This document shows positions 2,999 to 14,977 of a DNA stretch of 64,000 bases, one piece after another. The stretch comes from Verrucomicrobiota bacterium (lineage in GTDB: Bacteria > Verrucomicrobiota > Verrucomicrobiia > Chthoniobacterales > Terrimicrobiaceae). The stretch is taken from the NCBI GenBank assembly GCA_026398255.1, contig JAPLTG010000032.1:1-64000 (forward strand). The letters run 5' to 3'. The notes beneath the pieces are model-generated. The model was given only the letters and a program-made list of their open reading frames with translations. It was not told the origin of the DNA and ran no database searches. How positions within the stretch are numbered: position 1 is the first letter of the stretch; the number at the start of each line of letters is the position of its first letter. The position numbers and the translations under genes are program-made.

Positions 2999-3199
2999 AT
3001 GAAACAAAACCAATTCTTCGACCTCGAAGCGGAAGAGCAGTTGGAACTCTTCGATGTCATCCCCGACATGCCGCTGCCGGGTCTCCTCGATGATCCAGCC
3101 AATGAACCGCACATGGAATGGCTGAAGCGCCAGTCCAATGACGGACTCCGGATTTTTCTCCAAATCCTCGAAAACACTCAGGGGTTCCGCCGCTCATGA
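2999..3199 (+). CDS. Small hypothetical protein upstream of cfa, 66 aa
   Basis: A short acidic ORF starting MKQNQFFDLEAEEQ. An in-frame ATG exists at 2960, but the internal ATG at 2999 gives a more natural start. Its stop overlaps the ATG of the following cyclopropane synthase by four bases (ATGA), which argues that it is translated and coupled to that gene. It has no cysteines, signal peptide or known motif; the core (IPDMPLPGLLDDPANEP) is rich in proline and acidic residues. Function unknown. Confidence 0.55.
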   Translation: MKQNQFFDLEAEEQLELFDVIPDMPLPGLLDDPANEPHMEWLKRQSNDGLRIFLQILENTQGFRRS

Positions 3200-4377
3200 G
3201 CACCGCCACCGCACCCGCACCTGCGCCGCGTCTCAAACGCGGTGCCGCACCCGCCAAAGTCGCCCGCGCCGAAAAGATCGTCACGGATCTCTTCGCCGAG
3301 GCGGATATTCAAATCAATGGAGTCCGTCCCTGTGACATCCGCGTGAATGATTCGCGGTTTTTCGCGAGGGTTCTGGCGGAGGGAACGCTCGGCTTCGGCG
3401 AGTCCTACATGGAATCCTGGTGGGACTGCGACGACATCGAGGAGCTTTGCTACCGATCGATCCGCAGTCGCATATACGACCGCATCCAGCCGAGCTTCGG
3501 AGCGATCGTGGAAGTCGCCCTCTCGATCCTTCTGAACCTCCAAACCAAATCCCGCGCCCGGGTGGTGGCTCGGAAGCACTACGAACTCGGGAATGATTTT
3601 TTCGGATCAATGCTCGACCCCTCGATGCAATACTCCTGTGCCTATTTCCATGGCACGGCGGATCTCGCCACCGCGCAGGAAATGAAGATCGAACTCATCT
3701 GCCGCAAGCTGGGTCTGAGCCCCGGAATGCGGGTGCTCGACATTGGTTGTGGCTGGGGAGGCCTCGCCCAACACATGGCCTCGAACTACGGCTGCGAGGT
3801 GGTGGGGCTGACCATCTCCGAGGAGCAGTGCCGCTACGCCAACAACCTCTGTGCGGACCTGCCCGTGGATATTCGATTGCAGGACTACCGCGATGTGGAT
3901 GGCGTCTATGACCGCATCGTGAGCGTCGGAATGTTCGAGCATGTGGGGCCAAAAAATCACCTGACCTACATGAAAAAAGTCCGCCGTTGCCTCAAGCCAG
4001 ACGGGCTTTTTCTCCTGCACACGATCACCGCGAATGAAATCCGGCGGACATGCGACCGGTGGATTTCGAAATACATCTTCGCGAATTCCATGGTCCCAAC
4101 CGCCTCGGAAGTGCTCCAGGCGTCGGAGGGATTATTCGTCACCGAGGACCTTCACAACCTGGGATTATATTATGTGCCGACGCTCCGTGCGTGGGAGTCG
4201 GCGTTCATGAAATCCCGCGAGGAATTCCGTTTCCGCTACGGCGAGGAATTCGTCCGAATGTGGAGACTTTACCTACTGAGTTGCTCCGGCGCTTTCCGCG
4301 CACGAAGCCTGCAAGTTTTTCAATTCCTCCTCTCTCCTGAAGGCATGGAGGGCCACGAGCCACTTCGCTTCTCCTAA
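3196..4377 (+). CDS. cfa: Cyclopropane-fatty-acyl-phospholipid synthase
   Basis: A 393-residue SAM-dependent methyltransferase that adds a methylene bridge across the double bond of unsaturated acyl chains in membrane phospholipids. The N-terminal region matches the Cfa cap domain (ARVLAEGTLGFGESYMESWWD). The SAM-binding loop is VLDIGCGWGGLA near residue 185, followed by GCEVVGLTISEEQ and VSVGMFEHVG. Length is close to the usual 380-390. The C terminus (FRYGEEFVRMWRLYLLSCSGAFRAR) is the conserved family ending. A strong hairpin with a T tract follows within 60 bases. Confidence 0.95.
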   Translation: MSTATAPAPAPRLKRGAAPAKVARAEKIVTDLFAEADIQINGVRPCDIRVNDSRFFARVLAEGTLGFGESYMESWWDCDDIEELCYRSIRSRIYDRIQPSFGAIVEVALSILLNLQTKSRARVVARKHYELGNDFFGSMLDPSMQYSCAYFHGTADLATAQEMKIELICRKLGLSPGMRVLDIGCGWGGLAQHMASNYGCEVVGLTISEEQCRYANNLCADLPVDIRLQDYRDVDGVYDRIVSVGMFEHVGPKNHLTYMKKVRRCLKPDGLFLLHTITANEIRRTCDRWISKYIFANSMVPTASEVLQASEGLFVTEDLHNLGLYYVPTLRAWESAFMKSREEFRFRYGEEFVRMWRLYLLSCSGAFRARSLQVFQFLLSPEGMEGHEPLRFS

Positions 4378-4452: not shown

Positions 4453-6738
4453 GTGAAAATCAAAAATCCTGAATTCCGAATCCTCACGATCGCTGCAGCG
4501 GTCGCTTTCTCCATGCTCCCCGTCCAATCCGCTCCGCTCGAATCGGGACGGAGCAAGGCCACATTTGAACTCCCCTTGCTCCAATCCGGCGATGGCCGAC
4601 TCGAGGGCGTTCTGGCCGAGCGGGAGTTTTCCTTCCGCCTGCCCGAGCATGTTCAACTCGATCCGGGCAGCGAGATGGTTCTGGGCTTCCGCTCCTCGCC
4701 GCTCCTCCTCGATGTCTCGACATTTACTGTCACCATCAATGAGCGCCAAATCGTCAGCGCCCGGCTTGGACACGAGCCAAAGGGAGAGGAGAAACAAACT
4801 GAAAACTCCCTCGTCGTTCCGATCCCCGAGGGAGTGCTCCAAGCGGGCTGGAATCGACTCACCGTTCGCTGCCTTCTGCAAACCACCCAAACCCTCTGCC
4901 GCGATGTGGACAATCCCGCGGCTTGGATGGAATTCGGGCCGGAGTCAGTCGTTCGGGTGGCCTACACCAATTTGCCGCTCTTCACGGAAATCCAGCGTTT
5001 CCCAGACTCGATCACCGAGCCCGTCCTCATGCAACTCCCGGAGTTCCGCTCCCCCGCTAAAAAAACCAAGGCCGCACCCGTTGTCTCACTTTTGCTGCCG
5101 GAGGAGTCGGGGGACCCGGAACTCCGGTCCTTCCTCATCGCCGCGGCCCGGCTTGGGCAGACGGTTTACACCCCGCCAGAGGCCGTCTCTGTCGGTGACA
5201 TTGGCGAATTTTCGGAAGTCTGCGAGAGCCGCAACGGAGTGCTGATCGGCACGCGCGACCAGTTGGCGGAGCAACCTCTGCCGGGTCATATCAAGAAAGC
5301 CCTCTCGGAACTCCAGCCGGGGCAGGGATTCCTCGCCGAGTTGATCTACGGCCCGCCGGAAACCACCCAGCGCCGCTGGATCATTCTGAGTGGTGCCGAT
5401 GGCGCCGGATTGGAAAAGGCCGCCCTGACACTCGGCAGTGCCGTCGCCCTGCGGAGTGTGCCATCGAATCCCTGGATCATCGCCAAGGAGCCGGAGATCT
5501 CGCCGTTGGTGGAAAAAATCTCCCAGCCCGAGGTGGGGCCGCTGAAGCTCTCCTCGCTGGAAAATGGCGAAATCCTCCTGCGCGGAATCTTCCGGAATAG
5601 CACCTCGCGCCGAATCTCGTTTCCGCCAGGTTTTGAAACAACCGGCGCGGGTTATGTGGATTTCGATTTCACCCACGCCGATCAGCTCGAGAGAGCCTCC
5701 GCGTTCGATGCGCGCTTGAACGATGCGGTTCTGGGCAGCGTGGCACTCGCTCCCAATAATTCGGGTCGGGTCAAACAGCGTCTCTCGATCCCGGCTGGAA
5801 TCGTTGGCCGAGACCCTTCCTTGATGACGGTATCGAGCTATCTGGACATCGGAAGCGTGGATTGCGCCCACCGAAACGCGGAGCGGGCCTGGTTGAATAT
5901 CTCGGGCGAGACCGTGGTGGACCTCCGCACGACTCCCTTGAAGATCGACGACCTTTCGCGCTTGAACCTGCTCTGCCTGCGGGATGCCTTCCTTCGGCGA
6001 GCCGCTCTGCTGGTGCCCGAGGATTCGGATTCCACTCGCAACGATCTGATCAAAACGATCGGCATGCACCTGGGGTCTCGCCTGCCGGACATGCCGGTTC
6101 TTTGGCCACAAGTCGCGACCTTTGGCCCCGAAATTCCTCCCGAGCCGCATCGCGTCGAAAAACGCTCCGGCTTGGTGCTGGGGTCCGCCTTTCAGTGGCC
6201 CGAAGCTTTCGGAGAAAACAGCCGACTCATCGTTCAGGGTGGGGGAATCAACCGCGACGAAATAATCCTTCGCGGGGAGAAAGTGCCGGTCACTGATTTC
6301 GATCCCAATCTCAGCTTTGTGCAACTCGTGGCCTCGCCATGGACCGATGGGGAGTTTTTTGCCGCGATCGGGGGACTCGAGAACTACGGCGGCAACGCCA
6401 CGATCGCCCTCATCAACAATCCCGGGATTTTCGAGCAGCTGCGAGGCACCATCTCGGCGCTGGATGGCGACTCGCGCCTTCTCACCTACGATGTGAGGTC
6501 GGTCCACGAGGTTTCGCTTTCGGATAAGATGCGCTTGGCGTTTTCCCCTATCCGGCGCGTGGAGGATTTGGAGGCCAAAGAGATCAAGATTACCGAGGCG
6601 GGCTTGGCAGCCACGGCCTTGAATATCGGCATTGGCACGGGCGCCATGGCGCTTCTGGCGAGTTTGTTTCTCATTCAGCGGTTCGTCGTTCGTCGCCGCC
6701 ACAAAAATCATTCCGTCGAGAAGGGAGACGAACTGTGA
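4453..6738 (+). CDS. BcsB-like periplasmic subunit of an exopolysaccharide synthase
   Basis: A 761-residue exported protein that resembles BcsB, the periplasmic membrane-anchored partner of cellulose synthase. It has an N-terminal signal sequence (ILTIAAAVAFSMLPVQSA), a large carbohydrate-binding-like region, and a single C-terminal membrane helix (ALNIGIGTGAMALLASLF) followed by a basic tail. The BcsB-like segment GWNRLTVRCLL...CRDVDNPAAWMEFGPES lies near residues 135-175. No BcsA is adjacent; the glycosyltransferase of this operon is NfrB-like, so this subunit probably receives that glycan rather than cellulose. The GTG start lacks a clear ribosome binding site. The stop overlaps the next start by four bases (GTGA). 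Confidence 0.82.
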   Translation: MKIKNPEFRILTIAAAVAFSMLPVQSAPLESGRSKATFELPLLQSGDGRLEGVLAEREFSFRLPEHVQLDPGSEMVLGFRSSPLLLDVSTFTVTINERQIVSARLGHEPKGEEKQTENSLVVPIPEGVLQAGWNRLTVRCLLQTTQTLCRDVDNPAAWMEFGPESVVRVAYTNLPLFTEIQRFPDSITEPVLMQLPEFRSPAKKTKAAPVVSLLLPEESGDPELRSFLIAAARLGQTVYTPPEAVSVGDIGEFSEVCESRNGVLIGTRDQLAEQPLPGHIKKALSELQPGQGFLAELIYGPPETTQRRWIILSGADGAGLEKAALTLGSAVALRSVPSNPWIIAKEPEISPLVEKISQPEVGPLKLSSLENGEILLRGIFRNSTSRRISFPPGFETTGAGYVDFDFTHADQLERASAFDARLNDAVLGSVALAPNNSGRVKQRLSIPAGIVGRDPSLMTVSSYLDIGSVDCAHRNAERAWLNISGETVVDLRTTPLKIDDLSRLNLLCLRDAFLRRAALLVPEDSDSTRNDLIKTIGMHLGSRLPDMPVLWPQVATFGPEIPPEPHRVEKRSGLVLGSAFQWPEAFGENSRLIVQGGGINRDEIILRGEKVPVTDFDPNLSFVQLVASPWTDGEFFAAIGGLENYGGNATIALINNPGIFEQLRGTISALDGDSRLLTYDVRSVHEVSLSDKMRLAFSPIRRVEDLEAKEIKITEAGLAATALNIGIGTGAMALLASLFLIQRFVVRRRHKNHSVEKGDEL

Positions 6739-7967
6739 GGCTTGCCGCGTTGTTTCTAGGTTTTGCGTTAGCGGGAACGGCCTTGGCTGGCGGGAGCACC
6801 CTGCTGATCTACGATTCGCCTTCCAAACCGTTCTCGTTGCAGAACGAGATCGAGCCGATTGCGATCCTGCTGGCGCGCTTTGACCCCGCCATCGAACGCC
6901 GCATGGGGAGTGAAGTTCGTCTGGCGGACATGGAAAAAGCCTCCCGCATCGTGGTGGCTGGCATTGGAGGGTTTCCCGCCATGTCGGCCCCGTGCCTTGA
7001 GTATCTCGAGAAAACCAAAAAACCACTCGTGGGCATCGGAGCGGCGGCGACCCTGGCCATTCCAGATTCACCGCGTCCATCCAAGCCGTCCGAGTCGTTG
7101 CCCAAGGGACAACTCGTTTACCTCGGCAGGGAATGGCCCGCCCAGGTCGATCCGTATTTTCCGGCGGCCGTCGATTCCTCGCTGATCCTTGCTCGAATTC
7201 ATGGGGCGGATGGTGAAAAGGCGATTTGCTGGAGGTCTGGCAATCGTCTGGGATTTGCCGCGCTTCCTACGGCGCCTCCGCTCTCGATGGTTTTCTCGGA
7301 TGCGGTGATGGACCTCTTCTCCCCGGGAGTCAGCACCGCGCCGGGGATTCTTTTCATCGTTCGGGACTTCAATCCCTCGTGCTCGCCCGATTCCTTTCGG
7401 AGGTTGGTGGATTATTTTTCCCACGACCGAATTCCCTTCGCGGTGACGGCGCAGATGCGAGACCTCCCCGAGGGAACCACCCCCATGCCACGTGAGGAAT
7501 TTCTCGCGGCGCTCCGATATGCCGAATCGCACGGCGGAAGGATTTTCGTCCGGGGAGGCGAGGGGCTCAAGGAGGCCGAGAAATTCGCTCCCGTGAAGCC
7601 CTGTGGAATCGAGGAACCCGACCAACCGGACACGACGGCCATTCAAATTGGGCGCCCGACATTTGCCCGAACGCCGGATGATCCAATCAGTCCGTTTTTC
7701 ATCCATGCCCCGATGCGTCTCGCGGGCGGGGGGTGGTTGTGGCCGGCCAATGTGCGCGGGGGATTGGATGGGAACCTTGTCTCCTCCATCCGCACGCAAG
7801 TCCGGGACATCATTCCATTCCGTGGAGCTGTCGCGGGTGTCGTGATCCCGGCCTGGCTTCCCTTCCAATCCATGCGCGCCCTAGCCGATGCCGCCCGATC
7901 CTTTGGCATCGCCCCCATCGACCCTCTCACCGCAGTTCCTGAACCCCTTTCGCAACATCATCCATGA
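6735..7967 (+). CDS. DUF2334-type (polysaccharide deacetylase-like) secreted protein
   Basis: A 410-residue protein with a signal peptide (RLAALFLGFALAGTALAG) and a GTG start overlapping the upstream stop. The middle part, ILFIVRDFNPSCSPDSFRRL then VDYFSHDRIPFAVTAQMRDL, matches the DUF2334 pattern. In that family a metal-dependent deacetylase-like fold carries an Asp in place of the usual deacetylase motif. The first 170 residues resemble a Rossmann-like regulatory half. Embedded between BcsB-like and NfrA-like genes, it may modify the exported glycan, for example by removing N-acetyl groups; this is inference. Catalytic residues cannot be confirmed by eye. Confidence 0.65.
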   Translation: MRLAALFLGFALAGTALAGGSTLLIYDSPSKPFSLQNEIEPIAILLARFDPAIERRMGSEVRLADMEKASRIVVAGIGGFPAMSAPCLEYLEKTKKPLVGIGAAATLAIPDSPRPSKPSESLPKGQLVYLGREWPAQVDPYFPAAVDSSLILARIHGADGEKAICWRSGNRLGFAALPTAPPLSMVFSDAVMDLFSPGVSTAPGILFIVRDFNPSCSPDSFRRLVDYFSHDRIPFAVTAQMRDLPEGTTPMPREEFLAALRYAESHGGRIFVRGGEGLKEAEKFAPVKPCGIEEPDQPDTTAIQIGRPTFARTPDDPISPFFIHAPMRLAGGGWLWPANVRGGLDGNLVSSIRTQVRDIIPFRGAVAGVVIPAWLPFQSMRALADAARSFGIAPIDPLTAVPEPLSQHHP

Positions 7968-9559
7968 AATTCTTCCTTCCCTGTATTCTGGCTGCCGCCA
8001 GCCTTCACGCCCAACCGCTCGAGCTTCTCGAGCAGGCCAACATTCTCTCCAACGAGGGATCGCACGCCGCCGCCGCGGATCTTCTCAAGCAAGCCAGCTC
8101 AGCCGATCCCGGCAATGAGGCGTTATCATTCCGATTGGCGAGTGCCTTGGTTTTCAGTCGCCGCCACACCGAGGCGAGGGTCCTTTTGGATCGTCTCTCG
8201 AAATCCTGGAATCCAGAAATGGCCGCGATGGCCGCATCGAGCCTGACGGCCCTGGATCGGGCCGAAGAGGTGGAGCGCGCCGCCAAGGCAAAACCTCCCA
8301 GCGCCGCGCAGTTGCAGGCCCAGCGGGACTATCTCGAAAGGAAAGCCCGGATGGACCGCCGGCAGACTGTTTATGATCTCCTCGCCAGCGGAGAAGATTC
8401 AAAAGCTCTGACTGCGATCGAGTCTTTGGAGCGGAAAAACGAGGCGACGCCCGATTTGTTGCAGGAAAAAGCGGGGATCCTTGGGCGGATGGGGCGCACC
8501 AGCGAGGCCCTCGCGATTTTGAGTCGATTGGCGGAGTCCGGAAATTCCTCCAAGGAAACCCAACTCCAACTCGCCTCCCTGCTCATGAAGGAGGGAAAGA
8601 CTCGGGAGGCATTTCAAATTTGGAGCGGCCTCCGCGAGCAATACGGTGATGCCCCGGAGGGCCGGCAAGCAGCAATGGAGATCGACGCCCTGGCGGCTCC
8701 CTACAATCTCGATCGCTGGTCGTGGGGGGAACTCGATCTCTACGCGAGCTATCTCCAGCGGTTCAATATCGGGGTGGCCAATGGACGCCTTCGCCAAGGA
8801 ACTTTTGTGCCCGGAGCACGGTGGATCGAGCCCTTCGTGCAGGCGGATTTCAGTTTGGACTCCGATCCCTACGGCAACGGAGCCGAGGGATTATCGACGA
8901 TCTACAACGAAAACCTCGCAGGCTTCCACGCCGGCGCGAGGATTCGGCCATTCGCCACGCAGTCGTTCACCCTTTATGCGCTGGGTGGAATTCAAAAAGA
9001 CCTTCGAGGAACCGAGCAACATCGGGGGCAGTGGTTTTGGGAACTCATCACGGGTGTCAATGGATTCTGGGCGTGGGGCCCCGGAAAGGAATGGGCATTT
9101 TCCGACCTGCAAGCCATCGCGCCGGGAGGTCTTCCGGTGATTCCCCAATCCGTCGCCAACTGGATGCCAAATACCTGGAGTCCAGCCCAACTGAGGTGGG
9201 ATTGGTTTGTGGAGGCTGGAGGCGACGCGGCCTACTACACCCGGCTTGCCGACTGCATTGCCTACGGGCAATCGCGGCAAGGAATCCGCTTCGCGCAGTT
9301 CGGCAAGGCGGCGGCTCTTGATGCGTATGCTTTCGAAAACCTGACGATGGATACCGAGGGAAACTACTACGACAATTACTTCGAGGCCGGCCCGGGAATG
9401 CGCTTCGTCACCTCGCCGGTCGGCGCGGCGGTCTTTACCACCAGCGTCGAATATGTCGTCGGCAGTTATCTGGGCAGGAATGAGGGGGACACGCGAGGTG
9501 ACCTCGACACCGCCTACTCGGATTTCCGAATCACCGCCTCGCTATCCCTTCGCTGGTAA
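7964..9559 (+). CDS. NfrA-like outer-membrane TPR/beta-barrel protein
   Basis: A 531-residue protein with a signal peptide (KFFLPCILAAASLHA), about 230 residues of tetratricopeptide helices (repeated A-A-L-L and alternating E-A patterns up to about residue 240), then a C-terminal part rich in aromatic residues and beta strands. It ends in ASLSLRW, a terminal aromatic typical of barrel proteins. This order (TPR then barrel) is that of NfrA, the outer-membrane glycan exporter that N4 phage uses for adsorption, and of PgaA. The next gene is NfrB-like, which supports the call. E. coli NfrA is considerably longer. It starts in an ATGA overlap with the preceding gene. Confidence 0.78.
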   Translation: MKFFLPCILAAASLHAQPLELLEQANILSNEGSHAAAADLLKQASSADPGNEALSFRLASALVFSRRHTEARVLLDRLSKSWNPEMAAMAASSLTALDRAEEVERAAKAKPPSAAQLQAQRDYLERKARMDRRQTVYDLLASGEDSKALTAIESLERKNEATPDLLQEKAGILGRMGRTSEALAILSRLAESGNSSKETQLQLASLLMKEGKTREAFQIWSGLREQYGDAPEGRQAAMEIDALAAPYNLDRWSWGELDLYASYLQRFNIGVANGRLRQGTFVPGARWIEPFVQADFSLDSDPYGNGAEGLSTIYNENLAGFHAGARIRPFATQSFTLYALGGIQKDLRGTEQHRGQWFWELITGVNGFWAWGPGKEWAFSDLQAIAPGGLPVIPQSVANWMPNTWSPAQLRWDWFVEAGGDAAYYTRLADCIAYGQSRQGIRFAQFGKAAALDAYAFENLTMDTEGNYYDNYFEAGPGMRFVTSPVGAAVFTTSVEYVVGSYLGRNEGDTRGDLDTAYSDFRITASLSLRW

Positions 9560-9566
9560 TCACGCC

Positions 9567-12092
9567 ATGGACATCCTCAATTCACTCTTTCTCATGATGG
9601 CCTACACGGCCGCCGTTGGTTTTTTCCTTTTTGGAATCGACGATTTATTTTTCGACCTTCAAATCCTCCGACGGTTGCGAGGCCGACGCGGAGAGCCACC
9701 GGTGCCGATCGAAACCCTCCGCAATGAACCGGAAAAACTCATCGCGATCTTCATTCCAGCATGGAACGAAGGGGGAATCGTCAACCGCATGGCGGACTAT
9801 GCGAGGAAGACGCTCCTCTATGAGAACTACGATCTTTTCATCGGCGTCTATGCCAATGATCCGGAAACCAACCGGTGCGTCGATGAGTTGGTGAAAATCT
9901 CCCCGCGTGTGCACAAAGCGGTCGTGCCACACGCCGGGCCGACCTCGAAGGCGGATTGCCTGAACTATATTTTCAACACCATGCGGGCCTGCGAAATCCC
10001 GGGCCGGCGCGAATACGCGATCATCGCCCTCCACGACGCCGAGGACATCCTGCATCCGCTCACGCTGAAGGTTTACAATCACTATGTCCCCGAGATTTTG
10101 GACATGGGGCAAATTCCTGTTTTCCCCCTCGAGCTGCCTCCGTTGACGAATTGGGTTGGCAATACCTACCTCGATGAGTTTGCGGAGCTGCATGTGAAGG
10201 ACATGTATGCCCGCGAAGCAATCGGTGGTGTCGTTCCCTCGGCAGGCGTCGGGACAGCCTTTTCACGCAAATCGCTCGATCAGCTCGCGGAGGAGAATAA
10301 CGGCGTGCCATTTCCTGATGGAAGTCTGGCGGAGGATTACTTTGTGGGAATGAAACTCGCGGCGATGGGTTTTCGGACGGGTTTCATTGAAAATCCGGTC
10401 GAGAGACAAGTGGTGCGTCGCGACGCGAAGGGCCGTGAGATTTCCCGAAAAAACATCACGGAACGCGTCGCAGTGAGGGAAAATTTTCCCAGACGCTTCT
10501 TTCAGGCTGTTCGGCAAAAAGCCCGCTGGATTATTGGCACGGCGTTTCAAAGCTGGGAGCATCAAGGATGGAAGGGGGGGCTCGCTGCGAAATACACCCT
10601 CGTTCGTGATCGCCGGGCGCCAGTCGTCCACACCATCAACGCCGCCGGATACTGCGCGGTGGCCTACATGATCGCGGATATCGGAATCCGCCACACGGTG
10701 TTGGCCAATTCGTTTTATCTGCCGCCACTCTTCGAAGCGAACGGCCTTCTTTGGAAGCTCGTTCTTGTGGACACCGCCCTGCTTTGCTACCGGGTCGGGC
10801 AGAAGGTCTACCATGTCACCGATGTTTATGGATGGAAGCAGGGCATCTTTTCGATCCCGCGCTATCCGGTGGTGAATTTCATCAACATGGGAGCCACCTT
10901 CTGGGCCATCGTCGTCTACTCGCGCCACCGCCTCCTTGGAAAACCCCTGGCTTGGGCCAAGACGACACACACTTTCCCAGGAAGTGCGGAACTGGGGGAA
11001 TTTAACCGCTCCGTGGAAGATCTGCTGATCGACGAAGGCTATGTCCTTCGCAACGACCTGGAGAACATTCTGGTAAAAAACAGGGATCGCTCCGCACCGC
11101 GGGCGCTACTCGAGATGGGGCTGATCGATGAGGGGCAATTCTGCGATATTTGGTCCAAACATTCCGGCCTCGATGTCGGCGATGTCGATGTCGCCATCAT
11201 CGACCTGAGTCTCCTCGATTCGTGGCCTGAAAAAAAGGCCCTTCGCCACGAGGCCATGCCCCTGCAGCGCCGTGATGATGGACGCACGGTCTTCGCCTTT
11301 GCGGAGCCTCCCACCGAGCGGGATTTGAATCGCGTGGTGGAAACGGCAGGAACCCCGGTGGAACCAGTCCTGACCGCGCCGACTCAAATCACAAATCTTC
11401 GCAACCACGCCTATCCGCGACGGATTTTGAAGCCGCGTGCATTTCCCCTCCTGCTGCCCGAGTCTCCCACCGCCCTAGTCAATGCCGCTCCGAGCATTTC
11501 GATCATTCGCGCTCTTGGGCCGTTCTTTTGCGAACTTCATGGGCTGCTGCCAATGCTCGATGGCTCAATCGCCGCGCGCTCTCCCGTTCATCCCGGCATT
11601 GCGGCCAGGATGCACAAGATTCTTGGCACGGAAGCGCCTCTTGTTTCCGATAAAACACGGGGTTTTCAAACAGCATGGCGCAAATTTGAGCGCCTCCGAA
11701 TGCCTCATTCCTCGCTTTTGCAGGAACTCGCCGAGGCCGAGATTCTCACCAAGGAAAACACCGAGCGTATCCAAAATATGGCCCGCCTCGTCAGCACGCC
11801 GATGGATCGCATGCTCGTCCAACTCGGCCTCGCAAACCGCAAACAAGTTTACAACGCCCTGCGTCGTTGCGGCGGCGTGGATGTCGCCGCGGATCATGAC
11901 CATCAGGTCGCTCGGGGTTGTGAGGACCTTCTGGCTCCGGGATTCAGCGCCAAGACCGGAGTCGTCGTCCACCATCTCGATGGAGACGGCTTGGTCATGC
12001 GTCTGAGCGGCATGCTGTCCCCTAGCGAACTGCGGGAAATCTTCGATCGCTGCGAGGGTTGGCCCCTCCGCTTTGAACTTCTCGCCCCCTGA
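9567..12092 (+). CDS. NfrB-like glycosyltransferase with C-terminal c-di-GMP-binding MshEN-type region
   Basis: An 841-residue inner-membrane enzyme starting MDILNSLFLMMAYTAAVGFF. The GT2 domain contains FIPAWNEGG, the DxD-like HDAED, the acceptor acidic pair in AEDYFVGMKL and the processivity motif QKARW. Several membrane helices follow (near residues 350-480). The last 330 residues contain two segments resembling MshEN c-di-GMP modules (ALLEMGLIDEGQFCDIWSKH and RMLVQLGLANRKQVYNALRR). In E. coli NfrB, c-di-GMP binding at the MshEN domain activates polymerisation of a ManNAc-containing glycan. The start at 9567 is eight bases past the previous stop; an in-frame ATG at 9453 would overlap NfrA and is rejected. 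Confidence 0.88.
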   Translation: MDILNSLFLMMAYTAAVGFFLFGIDDLFFDLQILRRLRGRRGEPPVPIETLRNEPEKLIAIFIPAWNEGGIVNRMADYARKTLLYENYDLFIGVYANDPETNRCVDELVKISPRVHKAVVPHAGPTSKADCLNYIFNTMRACEIPGRREYAIIALHDAEDILHPLTLKVYNHYVPEILDMGQIPVFPLELPPLTNWVGNTYLDEFAELHVKDMYAREAIGGVVPSAGVGTAFSRKSLDQLAEENNGVPFPDGSLAEDYFVGMKLAAMGFRTGFIENPVERQVVRRDAKGREISRKNITERVAVRENFPRRFFQAVRQKARWIIGTAFQSWEHQGWKGGLAAKYTLVRDRRAPVVHTINAAGYCAVAYMIADIGIRHTVLANSFYLPPLFEANGLLWKLVLVDTALLCYRVGQKVYHVTDVYGWKQGIFSIPRYPVVNFINMGATFWAIVVYSRHRLLGKPLAWAKTTHTFPGSAELGEFNRSVEDLLIDEGYVLRNDLENILVKNRDRSAPRALLEMGLIDEGQFCDIWSKHSGLDVGDVDVAIIDLSLLDSWPEKKALRHEAMPLQRRDDGRTVFAFAEPPTERDLNRVVETAGTPVEPVLTAPTQITNLRNHAYPRRILKPRAFPLLLPESPTALVNAAPSISIIRALGPFFCELHGLLPMLDGSIAARSPVHPGIAARMHKILGTEAPLVSDKTRGFQTAWRKFERLRMPHSSLLQELAEAEILTKENTERIQNMARLVSTPMDRMLVQLGLANRKQVYNALRRCGGVDVAADHDHQVARGCEDLLAPGFSAKTGVVVHHLDGDGLVMRLSGMLSPSELREIFDRCEGWPLRFELLAP

Positions 12093-12101
12093 TTTCTTAT
12101 T

Positions 12102-13268
12102 ATGAAAAAAACGATCGCCGTCATTGTCGGAACCCGTCCGGAAGCCATCAAGCTCGCTCCCGTGATCCGTGCCCTCGGTTTTTCCGACCACCTGCAACCC
12201 ATCACCATTTCGACCTCCCAGCACGGCGAGATGGTGGAGCAAATCTTCGAGAATTTCGGCATCACGGCCGATGTGGATCTTCAAGTCATGCGTCCACGCC
12301 AGAAGCTCTGGGACCTTACCGCGATCCTATCCACAGAACTCGGCGCGTATTTTTCCGATCATCCCGTGGATGCCGTGCTCGTCCAAGGCGACACGACCTC
12401 TGCTCTCATCGGGGGGCTCTCCGCTTTCTACCACAAAATTCCAGTCGGCCATGTCGAGGCCGGCCTGCGCTCGCATGATCGCTACTCGCCATTTCCCGAG
12501 GAATTAAATCGCACCCTCCTCACCCGCATCGCGCAATGGCACTTCGCTCCGACCCCCTACGCCGCGGATTTGCTTCGAAGCGAGAACATCGACAACGCCA
12601 CGATTTATATCACCGGCAATACCGTCGTGGACGCCCTGCATTGGATGTCTCGGCACCTTCGCCACAGCGAAATTCGTCCCGGCATTCTGAATGGGCAGCG
12701 AAAACTCGTCCTCGTCACTTGCCATCGCCGCGAAAACATCGGACTCCCCATGCGATCCGTCGCTCTCGCCATCAAGCACCTCGCCGACTCGCATCCCGAG
12801 GCCCACTTTCTTTTTCCCATGCACCCGAACCCCGGAGTCCGCGAGTTGATCCAGCCCATTCTTTCCAAGCAAAACGGCGTCACGCTTTGCGAGCCTCTGA
12901 ACTACGAGGAATTCCTCTCCGCCTTGCACCAATCCTATTTTGTGATCTCCGACTCTGGCGGGGTCCAAGAAGAAGCCACCGCCCTCGGCAAGCCCGTCCT
13001 CGTCCTGCGCCGCGAAACCGAGCGACCCGAAGGCGTCGAGGCCGGCACGCTTCGTCTCGTCGGAACCGATGTCCAAGAAATCCTCCGCGCGGGCCACGAG
13101 CTTTTGGTGAACCCCGAAAGCCACGGAGCGATGTCCAACGGATCCGGAGTTTTCGGAGACGGAAAAGCCGCTCAAAAAATCCAAAAAATCCTCGAGCAAA
13201 ACCTCAGCACCGCCAACCGCATCCTGCCCTTCAAGAAACCGACAGGTGAACTGGTTCTGATGGAGTAG
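12102..13268 (+). CDS. wecB: UDP-N-acetylglucosamine 2-epimerase (non-hydrolysing)
   Basis: A 388-residue cytoplasmic enzyme converting UDP-GlcNAc to UDP-ManNAc. Family motifs are GTRPEAIKLAPVI at the start, QGDTTSAL, GHVEAGLRSHDR, the RRENIG segment, and the C-terminal SDSGGVQEEATALGKPVLVLR that binds the nucleotide. It begins ten bases after the NfrB-like gene in the same operon. E. coli WecB supplies UDP-ManNAc to NfrB, so this gene closes the logic of the locus: substrate synthesis, polymerisation, and periplasmic and outer-membrane transport. Confidence 0.95.
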   Translation: MKKTIAVIVGTRPEAIKLAPVIRALGFSDHLQPITISTSQHGEMVEQIFENFGITADVDLQVMRPRQKLWDLTAILSTELGAYFSDHPVDAVLVQGDTTSALIGGLSAFYHKIPVGHVEAGLRSHDRYSPFPEELNRTLLTRIAQWHFAPTPYAADLLRSENIDNATIYITGNTVVDALHWMSRHLRHSEIRPGILNGQRKLVLVTCHRRENIGLPMRSVALAIKHLADSHPEAHFLFPMHPNPGVRELIQPILSKQNGVTLCEPLNYEEFLSALHQSYFVISDSGGVQEEATALGKPVLVLRRETERPEGVEAGTLRLVGTDVQEILRAGHELLVNPESHGAMSNGSGVFGDGKAAQKIQKILEQNLSTANRILPFKKPTGELVLME

Positions 13269-13858: not shown

Positions 13859-14977
13859 ATGGAGACTTTGAAACGCTGGAATTGGCAGCAGGACGACTGG
13901 CCGCATTTTCGTTTTGATGCGAACCGGTTGGCTGCACTGGAGGAGAAATTCTTGAGGGCGGCGGGCGTTTTTTTTGGGAGTTTCAAGCACTTGGCCAATG
14001 AATCCAGGGCGCCGCTGGAGGTGGAACTCCTGAGCGAGGAGGCGGTGAAATCCTCGGAGATCGAAGGGGAAATGCTCAATCGCGACAGCGTGGTCTCCTC
14101 GATCCGGCGACAGTTCGGCTTGGCCACGGATCATCGCCGGGTTCCCCCTGCCGAGTTGGGGATTTCACAATTGATGGCGGAACTCCACCGGGAGTTTGAG
14201 GCCCCGGTGGATGAGGCGCGGCTTGCGCATTGGCACTCGCTGCTGATGAATGGCCGAAGCGACTTGGAAAAGATCGCTGGTTACCGACTGGAAGGTGATC
14301 CGATGCAAGTGGTTTCGGGTTCGCTCCACGATCCAAAAGTGCATTTCGAGGCGCCGTCCTGCTCGGCGGTGCCTTCTGAAATGTCCCAATTTCTGGACTG
14401 GTATGCGAGAACGGGCCCGAACGGACCTGATGGTCTACCAATCCTCACGAGGGCAGGTCTTTGCCATCTTTATTTTGTGAGCATTCATCCTTTTGAAGAC
14501 GGCAACGGACGTCTTGCGAGGGCATTGGCGGAAAAATGCCTTGCAGAGGGTCTCGGGCATCCGGTGCTGATTGCTCTTTCGGCAACGATTCATCGTGGTC
14601 GCAAAACCTACTATGAAATGCTTGAGCGGGCCAACAAGCGGAACGAGGTTACGGAGTGGTTGTTGTATTTCGCGGAAGCCATTCTTGCTGCACAAGCCGA
14701 AGCGCAAACTTGGGTTGAATTCTTGATCGAAAAGACAAAGCTCTTCGACCGGTTGCGTGGTCTTTTGAACAAGAGGCAGGAAAAAGTCCTCCTCCGCATG
14801 ACCCGCGAAGGCCCCGCTGGGTTCCAAGGTGGTCTGAGTGCGGAGAATTATTTGGCAATCACGGGCGCCTCTCGGGCTACGGCAACCCGAGACCTGCAAG
14901 AATTGGTGGAAATGGGGGCCCTTGTTCGCAGTGGGCGCCTGAAGGGCACTCGATACCGATTGGCCTTTTTAATCTAG
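13859..14977 (+). CDS. Fic-family protein with DUF4172 N terminus and winged-helix C terminus
   Basis: A 372-residue protein. The N-terminal 80 residues (RWNWQQDDWPHFRFDANRL) match DUF4172. The Fic core has the catalytic motif HPFEDGNGRLAR near residue 218, so AMP or another nucleotide phosphate could be transferred to a target hydroxyl. An inhibitory-helix motif of the S/T-xxx-E-G/N type is present upstream (SSEIEG), so the enzyme is likely self-inhibited. The C terminus (YLAITGASRATATRDLQEL) is a winged helix-turn-helix. It sits alone within the tRNA-bounded island and has no visible ribosome binding site, so translation may be leaderless. Confidence 0.9.
   Translation: METLKRWNWQQDDWPHFRFDANRLAALEEKFLRAAGVFFGSFKHLANESRAPLEVELLSEEAVKSSEIEGEMLNRDSVVSSIRRQFGLATDHRRVPPAELGISQLMAELHREFEAPVDEARLAHWHSLLMNGRSDLEKIAGYRLEGDPMQVVSGSLHDPKVHFEAPSCSAVPSEMSQFLDWYARTGPNGPDGLPILTRAGLCHLYFVSIHPFEDGNGRLARALAEKCLAEGLGHPVLIALSATIHRGRKTYYEMLERANKRNEVTEWLLYFAEAILAAQAEAQTWVEFLIEKTKLFDRLRGLLNKRQEKVLLRMTREGPAGFQGGLSAENYLAITGASRATATRDLQELVEMGALVRSGRLKGTRYRLAFLI

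Follow-up and report, generated by a model that had tools for sequence, protein, structure and literature searches.

NfrB is the reference case of direct control of a glycan synthase by cyclic di-GMP (c-di-GMP), exerted through an MshEN domain. In Escherichia coli, NfrB, NfrA and WecB make the N4 glycan receptor (NGR; PMC8669469, PMC8669472). A BcsB homolog stands beside nfrA, nfrB and wecB in Achromobacter (Sellner et al., PMC8669472), and the PGR locus of Acinetobacter baumannii combines NfrB-, BcsB- and WecB-like genes, with the BcsB homolog required for adsorption of phage StAb3 (PMC12507263). Clusters annotated as wecB-bcsB-nfrB-nfrA also occur on plasmids of Nitratireductor, Variovorax, Pseudomonas and Paraburkholderia. 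Here we describe a related five-gene locus at positions 4453–13268 of a 64,000-nucleotide stretch (hereafter, the window) of a Verrucomicrobiota bacterium of the family Terrimicrobiaceae (assembly GCA_026398255.1, contig JAPLTG010000032.1, positions 1 to 64,000).

Because nfrB, wecB, a BcsB-type partner and an exporter recognized by architecture only lie in one operon, we assign the locus to the NGR/PGR type. Given the Achromobacter and PGR descriptions, the combination of NfrB, NfrA and WecB with BcsB is not new. What is new is a clade-wide loss of the c-di-GMP motif, a three-domain array in the synthase and a degenerate DUF2334-like partner. We consider it reasonably probable that the locus is an exopolysaccharide operon of this type, that its polymer probably contains N-acetylmannosamine (ManNAc) and that its synthase is not switched by c-di-GMP.

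The c-di-GMP motif and the GSPII array

The c-di-GMP-binding motif of 53 residues (PMC5013675) is represented by NF053729, a curated NCBI model of 53 positions with a cut-off of 38 bits. All 13 NfrB proteins of the clade fell below this cut-off, the 12 from outside the window scoring 13.9–28.1 bits; the seven canonical NfrB proteins scored 66.4 (E. coli), 64.6 and 80.1 (two from Alphaproteobacteria) and 98.8–119.6 (four from our phylum sample). The window protein has E484, P511 and W529 in place of G491, G519 and L537 of E. coli NfrB. Across the clade, the first contact glycine (E. coli G491) is replaced by E in 13 of 13 proteins and the second (G519) by P in 11 and by A in 2, while R517 has become S, L518 A and L537 W in every one. 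Replacing the first glycine abolished c-di-GMP binding in MshE (Wang et al., PMC5013675), and G491L in E. coli NfrB abolished killing by phage N4 (Sellner et al., PMC8669472). In an engineered GSPII-A domain of PilF, alanine at the site corresponding to the second glycine lowers affinity about tenfold to thirtyfold (PMC12002112). Since both glycines are widespread elsewhere, their loss in the clade appears to be derived, a polarity that depends on the root of the tree.

The first-pass annotation of this locus had proposed c-di-GMP-type control on the expectation of an MshEN domain, and had named PF05157 among the models by which to check it. PF05157 (MshEN) does match the synthase above threshold (35.8 bits, cut-off 23.1), but it aligns to residues 545–618, which correspond to MshEN_C, the non-binding half, and lie beyond the c-di-GMP-binding region. 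A PF05157 match alone therefore says nothing about c-di-GMP binding, and NF053729 is the relevant test. The proposed control fails on two counts: the motif is degenerate in all 13 proteins, and profile searches of the host genome, which is 100% complete, returned no GGDEF, EAL or PilZ match.

The comparison genomes are mostly drafts. Within the genus, 10 of the 12 genomes that carry the operon are without a GGDEF match and one (G012) has two, whereas three of the four non-carriers have GGDEF genes. The G012 synthase ends at a contig end before the motif. Genome G048, from another family of the same order, has four GGDEF matches and yet the same motif substitutions, so the change characterizes the clade as a whole and not only hosts lacking c-di-GMP; this also weakens the idea, which we had considered, that motif loss simply follows GGDEF loss. 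Canonical NfrB with both glycines kept is encoded in five other genomes from the phylum sample; all five have GGDEF genes, in four cases on the same contig and within about 10 kb. The neighbors in these canonical loci are NfrA-type and DUF4434/YbcH-type genes, with no BcsB homolog in the intervals viewed.

Sequence profiles and a predicted structure indicate three tandem GSPII-like domains in the C terminus of the synthase. The AlphaFold model of residues 472–841 has a mean pLDDT of 83.9, and Foldseek placed the GSPII structure 5htl on it with E 4e-7 and TMt 0.74, matching a single GSPII unit each time. Inside the array, profile comparisons gave E values of 4e-6 (domains 2 and 3) and 3e-5 (domains 1 and 2), alongside the value for domains 1 and 3 listed in Table 1. 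The best sequence match of domain 1 as a single-domain structure was GSPII-A of Thermus thermophilus PilF (9g1w, 2.2e-9), which was found not to bind c-di-GMP (PMC12002112). Beyond the first domain the synthase extends for about 220 amino acids in the window, against about 270 in relatives; the domain 2 shortening of ~48 residues falls at about residues 634–635 and reflects either a real deletion or an assembly effect.

Two genomes of sister species in which the synthase is absent (G010 and G004) encode a stand-alone protein beside parA, with a predicted membrane segment and the same array (L056:9913-11412 and L057:3155-4615, respectively). Several canonical NfrB proteins contain two stretches matching the c-di-GMP motif model, one of them at the C terminus in two proteins. 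Multiplication is therefore not unique to the clade, and it is the loss of binding residues that sets it apart. Two NfrB genes of the phylum sample (L084:6319-8385 and L085:7680-9746) have two motif matches of which the C-terminal one is the better.

The operon and its products

The five open reading frames (Table 1) run in one direction with 4-bp overlaps between genes 1 and 2 and genes 2 and 3, a 7-bp gap between genes 3 and 4 and a 9-bp gap between genes 4 and 5; the synthase frame is itself open from 9453. The order BcsB, DUF2334-like, tetratricopeptide repeat (TPR)/barrel, NfrB, WecB is identical in seven other genomes of the genus (G003, G005, G006, G007, G008, G013 and G014) and in G048. 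In four more (G001, G002, G011 and G012), contig ends interrupt the locus and the order is the same as far as the contigs reach. Among 58 relatives and 213 genomes of the order, a synthase with the C-terminal region was found only in the window's genus and in G048; in G477, of the same genus as G048, a BcsB fragment lies at the end of a contig. All 12 genus genomes with NfrB also have BcsB, the four without NfrB lack it, and this co-occurrence, together with the fixed order, places the BcsB partner in the operon. The five-gene operon is thus real and conserved as one unit, and the tight spacing, NfrB-type synthase, WecB and membrane-anchored BcsB-like subunit without BcsA named in the first-pass annotation were all confirmed. 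A promoter and terminator scan gave nothing above chance.

Table 1 Positions in the window of the five genes and of features within their products
Feature	Position	Strand	Evidence or remark
BcsB-like periplasmic protein, 761 aa	4453..6738	+	PF03170 91.2 bits, cut-off 21
Secreted two-domain protein: glutamine-amidotransferase-like N domain and degenerate DUF2334/NodB-like domain	6735..7967; DUF2334 part 7353-7550	+	
R273, where the DUF2334 metal motif HGYTH has its first His	7551..7553	+	Second His gone too
TPR and putative outer-membrane barrel protein, 531 aa, last residue W	7964..9559	+	TPR_19 48.2 bits
NfrB-type processive glycosyltransferase family 2 (GT2) synthase, membrane helices and C-terminal GSPII array, 841 aa	9567..12092	+	PF13641 118.8 bits
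GSPII domain 1	11004..11429	+	PF05157 match in C-terminal half only; model similar to 5htl and PilF GSPII domains
53-residue c-di-GMP motif position, degenerate	11007..11162 (residues 481-532)	+	NF053729 16.7 bits, cut-off 38
GSPII-like domain 2	11430..11651	+	~48 aa shorter than in every full-length relative
GSPII-like domain 3	11652..12089	+	Helix/strand order in AlphaFold model; hhalign of domains 1 and 3, E 2e-6
WecB, non-hydrolyzing UDP-GlcNAc 2-epimerase	12102..13268	+	TIGR00236 419.5 bits, cut-off 210

The synthase retains the equivalents of catalytic D169, D267 and W330 (QxxRW), and the clade forms one branch of the GT-domain tree (support 100/100). Its scores against two NfrB equivalogs, NF008411 (449 bits, cut-off 1170) and NF012033 (475.6 bits, cut-off 537), are below the respective cut-offs. 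WecB is the sole Epimerase_2 match above cut-off in the host genome.

The BcsB-like protein consists of an N-terminal signal-like segment, two carbohydrate-binding-type stretches (4582-5013 and 5566-5973) and a C-terminal membrane anchor. Its profile matches solved BcsB structures such as 9fmt and 6yg8 (E about 2e-5), and it scores 43.1 bits against the curated cellulose-synthase BcsB equivalog, below the cut-off of 750. No BcsA/CelA-type synthase exceeded its cut-off anywhere in the genus; a BcsA-like GT2 in G012 was rejected as part of the operon because it sits in a separate GGDEF-EAL locus. At L120:6215-12014 (G012:C49), genes for a GAF-GGDEF-EAL protein, a GT2 and a TPR protein form a separate cluster, a candidate c-di-GMP-linked glycan locus of genus members, with possibly similar clusters at G004:C391 and G010:C2. 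Our survey across named organisms covered plasmid loci, whose BcsB-like proteins are very divergent from those of the clade and match them weakly (hhalign E 0.0086). A single-protein search of genome contigs matched only sphingomonad GT2 homologs.

The second gene had been annotated as a putative DUF2334 deacetylase that possibly acts on the polymer, a role its product does not support. PF10096 stayed sub-threshold (16.9 bits, cut-off 26; 17.4 and 20.1 bits in two relatives), and the metal-binding HxxxH is missing from 11 of 11 clade copies, which have RGG or similar in place of HGYTH. A Comamonadaceae nfr cluster encodes a DUF2334 homolog that retains HGYTH; its alignment with the window protein covers the N domain and the beginning of DUF2334 (hhalign E 1e-6). 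The predicted model reaches a mean pLDDT of 74.4 and is of low confidence at 295–345; its first half resembles class-I glutamine amidotransferases of the HisH type, and polysaccharide deacetylase folds are matched weakly; comparison of the profile with sequences in the PDB gave no meaningful match. The lost HxxxH on a deacetylase-like fold leads us to read it as probably a pseudo-deacetylase, with a role that is probably non-catalytic, in glycan handling or binding or as a scaffold.

The third product would be NfrA/BcsC/PgaA-like by architecture only. The expectation of an NfrA exporter held for the TPR/porin-like layout and not for the family: NfrA_C (PF13283) was not found in the proteins of the window, L042 or L052, hhalign against a single NfrA was weak, and only the TPR part aligned to an NfrA profile (N-terminal 57 columns).

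The operon is flanked upstream by a cyclopropane-fatty-acid synthase gene (3196-4377), which adjoins it in G003 (L049) too, and downstream by a gene for a Fic/DUF4172 protein (13859-14977).

Proposed pathway and its alternatives

In the pathway we propose, WecB would convert UDP-GlcNAc to UDP-ManNAc, which the NfrB-type GT2, using it alone or in a mix, would polymerize across the inner membrane. In the periplasm the chain may then be received and guided by the membrane-anchored BcsB-like protein, and the TPR/barrel protein would export it. The DUF2334-like protein probably serves as a glycan-handling or scaffold part, taking the place of DUF4434, YbcH or PgrE elsewhere. With the binding residues lost and two further GSPII-like domains present, the synthase would either work constitutively or answer to another ligand or a partner protein. 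Of the earlier proposal of a hybrid pathway, an NfrB-type synthase with a BcsB-type periplasmic partner persists, as one conserved unit with WecB and a TPR/porin-like exporter; deacetylation and c-di-GMP control drop out.

Several points weigh against a synthase uncoupled from c-di-GMP in an NGR/PGR-type operon. G012 and G048 hold both the operon and GGDEF genes, which means that some carriers do have c-di-GMP, and G013 carries an 87-aa GGDEF fragment. Diguanylate cyclases outside the GGDEF family may act in genomes without a GGDEF match, and the synthase may bind c-di-GMP in another mode. The GSPII domain may also be regulatory through binding of a PilZ-like protein, or purely structural, and no family model matches the NfrA-like barrel.

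As for what the array does, it is quite possible, if still tentative, that it has been repurposed to sense a ligand other than c-di-GMP or to dock a partner protein, gating polymer synthesis. If so, the operon would encode a glycan synthase with a rewritten second-messenger switch and a duplicated fold, with a stand-alone copy of the array in sister species. The array could instead be a degenerate structural remnant on a constitutive synthase that is controlled by transcription or precursor supply only. In some NfrB-type homologs (515 aa in a Comamonadaceae bacterium, ~470 aa in sphingomonads) no MshEN domain is detected, and the window copy has itself lost ~48 aa of domain 2, but the replacement residues (S-A-P and W) vary little or not at all within the clade, and every full-length relative, like the stand-alone paralogs, has kept the three-domain array. 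Invariant substitutions in a retained array suggest a selected function, and we regard a remnant as unlikely.

It is more doubtful still that the polymer lacks ManNAc, being cellulose-like or resembling poly-N-acetylglucosamine, with WecB serving another pathway. The BcsB-type partner would suit such a polymer, and the only full Epimerase_2 of the genome could feed other glycans; against this, wecB closes the operon throughout the clade, its linkage to nfrB recurs in Proteobacteria (PMC8669469), and the glycosyltransferase is much closer to NfrB (449 bits) than to CelA, for which nothing passed the cut-off. Least probable, and by our estimate very improbable, is an NfrB hybrid pathway that combines activation by c-di-GMP with deacetylation in the periplasm, for which the PF05157 match, the DUF2334-like fold and the GGDEF genes of G012 and G048 speak less than the degenerate motif, the host without GGDEF, EAL or PilZ matches and the loss of HxxxH throughout the clade.

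An NGR/PGR-type operon whose synthase has left c-di-GMP control would offer a natural test of GSPII function without c-di-GMP, as the clade keeps and multiplies GSPII domains with the contact glycines replaced, in hosts mostly without GGDEF. It also carries a warning that neither a PF05157 match nor the name NfrB alone establishes c-di-GMP control. A phage-receptor role, which the first-pass annotation had suggested as possible, would have precedents in both E. coli and A. baumannii (PMC8669472, PMC12507263).

Comparison with described loci

The locus extends NfrB-BcsB hybrids beyond Proteobacteria. With E. coli NGR it shares an NfrB-type GT2 with a GSPII/MshEN region, a TPR/barrel exporter and dependence on a WecB-type epimerase. 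E. coli NfrB, however, binds c-di-GMP, with a Kd of about 1 uM for residues 414–745 (PMC8669469), the system uses DgcJ and has YbcH, and its operon is without BcsB; in the window the motif is lost, BcsB and the DUF2334-like protein are added and there is no YbcH. A. baumannii PGR is similar in its NfrB-like PgrC, BcsB-like PgrD, WecB-like PgrF and porin PgrG (PMC12507263), but it has PgrE, which resembles the C terminus of PgaB, and PgrA, a degenerate GGDEF protein, and as described it has no DUF2334-like partner.

The proteobacterial wecB-bcsB-nfrB-nfrA clusters likewise place a BcsB-annotated gene beside NfrB and WecB with no BcsA, whereas the NfrB proteins tested there keep both contact glycines and the Nitratireductor exporter has NfrA_C. 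In the Comamonadaceae nfr cluster (L065), the homology of the DUF2334 protein extends through the N domain and half of DUF2334, but its DUF2334 domain has an intact HGYTH and a score of 142 bits, the interval contains no BcsB and no MshEN domain is detected in the NfrB homolog. T. thermophilus PilF offers a parallel for the array, in that GSPII-A is one of three tandem GSPII domains, although there these domains are part of a pilus ATPase rather than of a glycan synthase.

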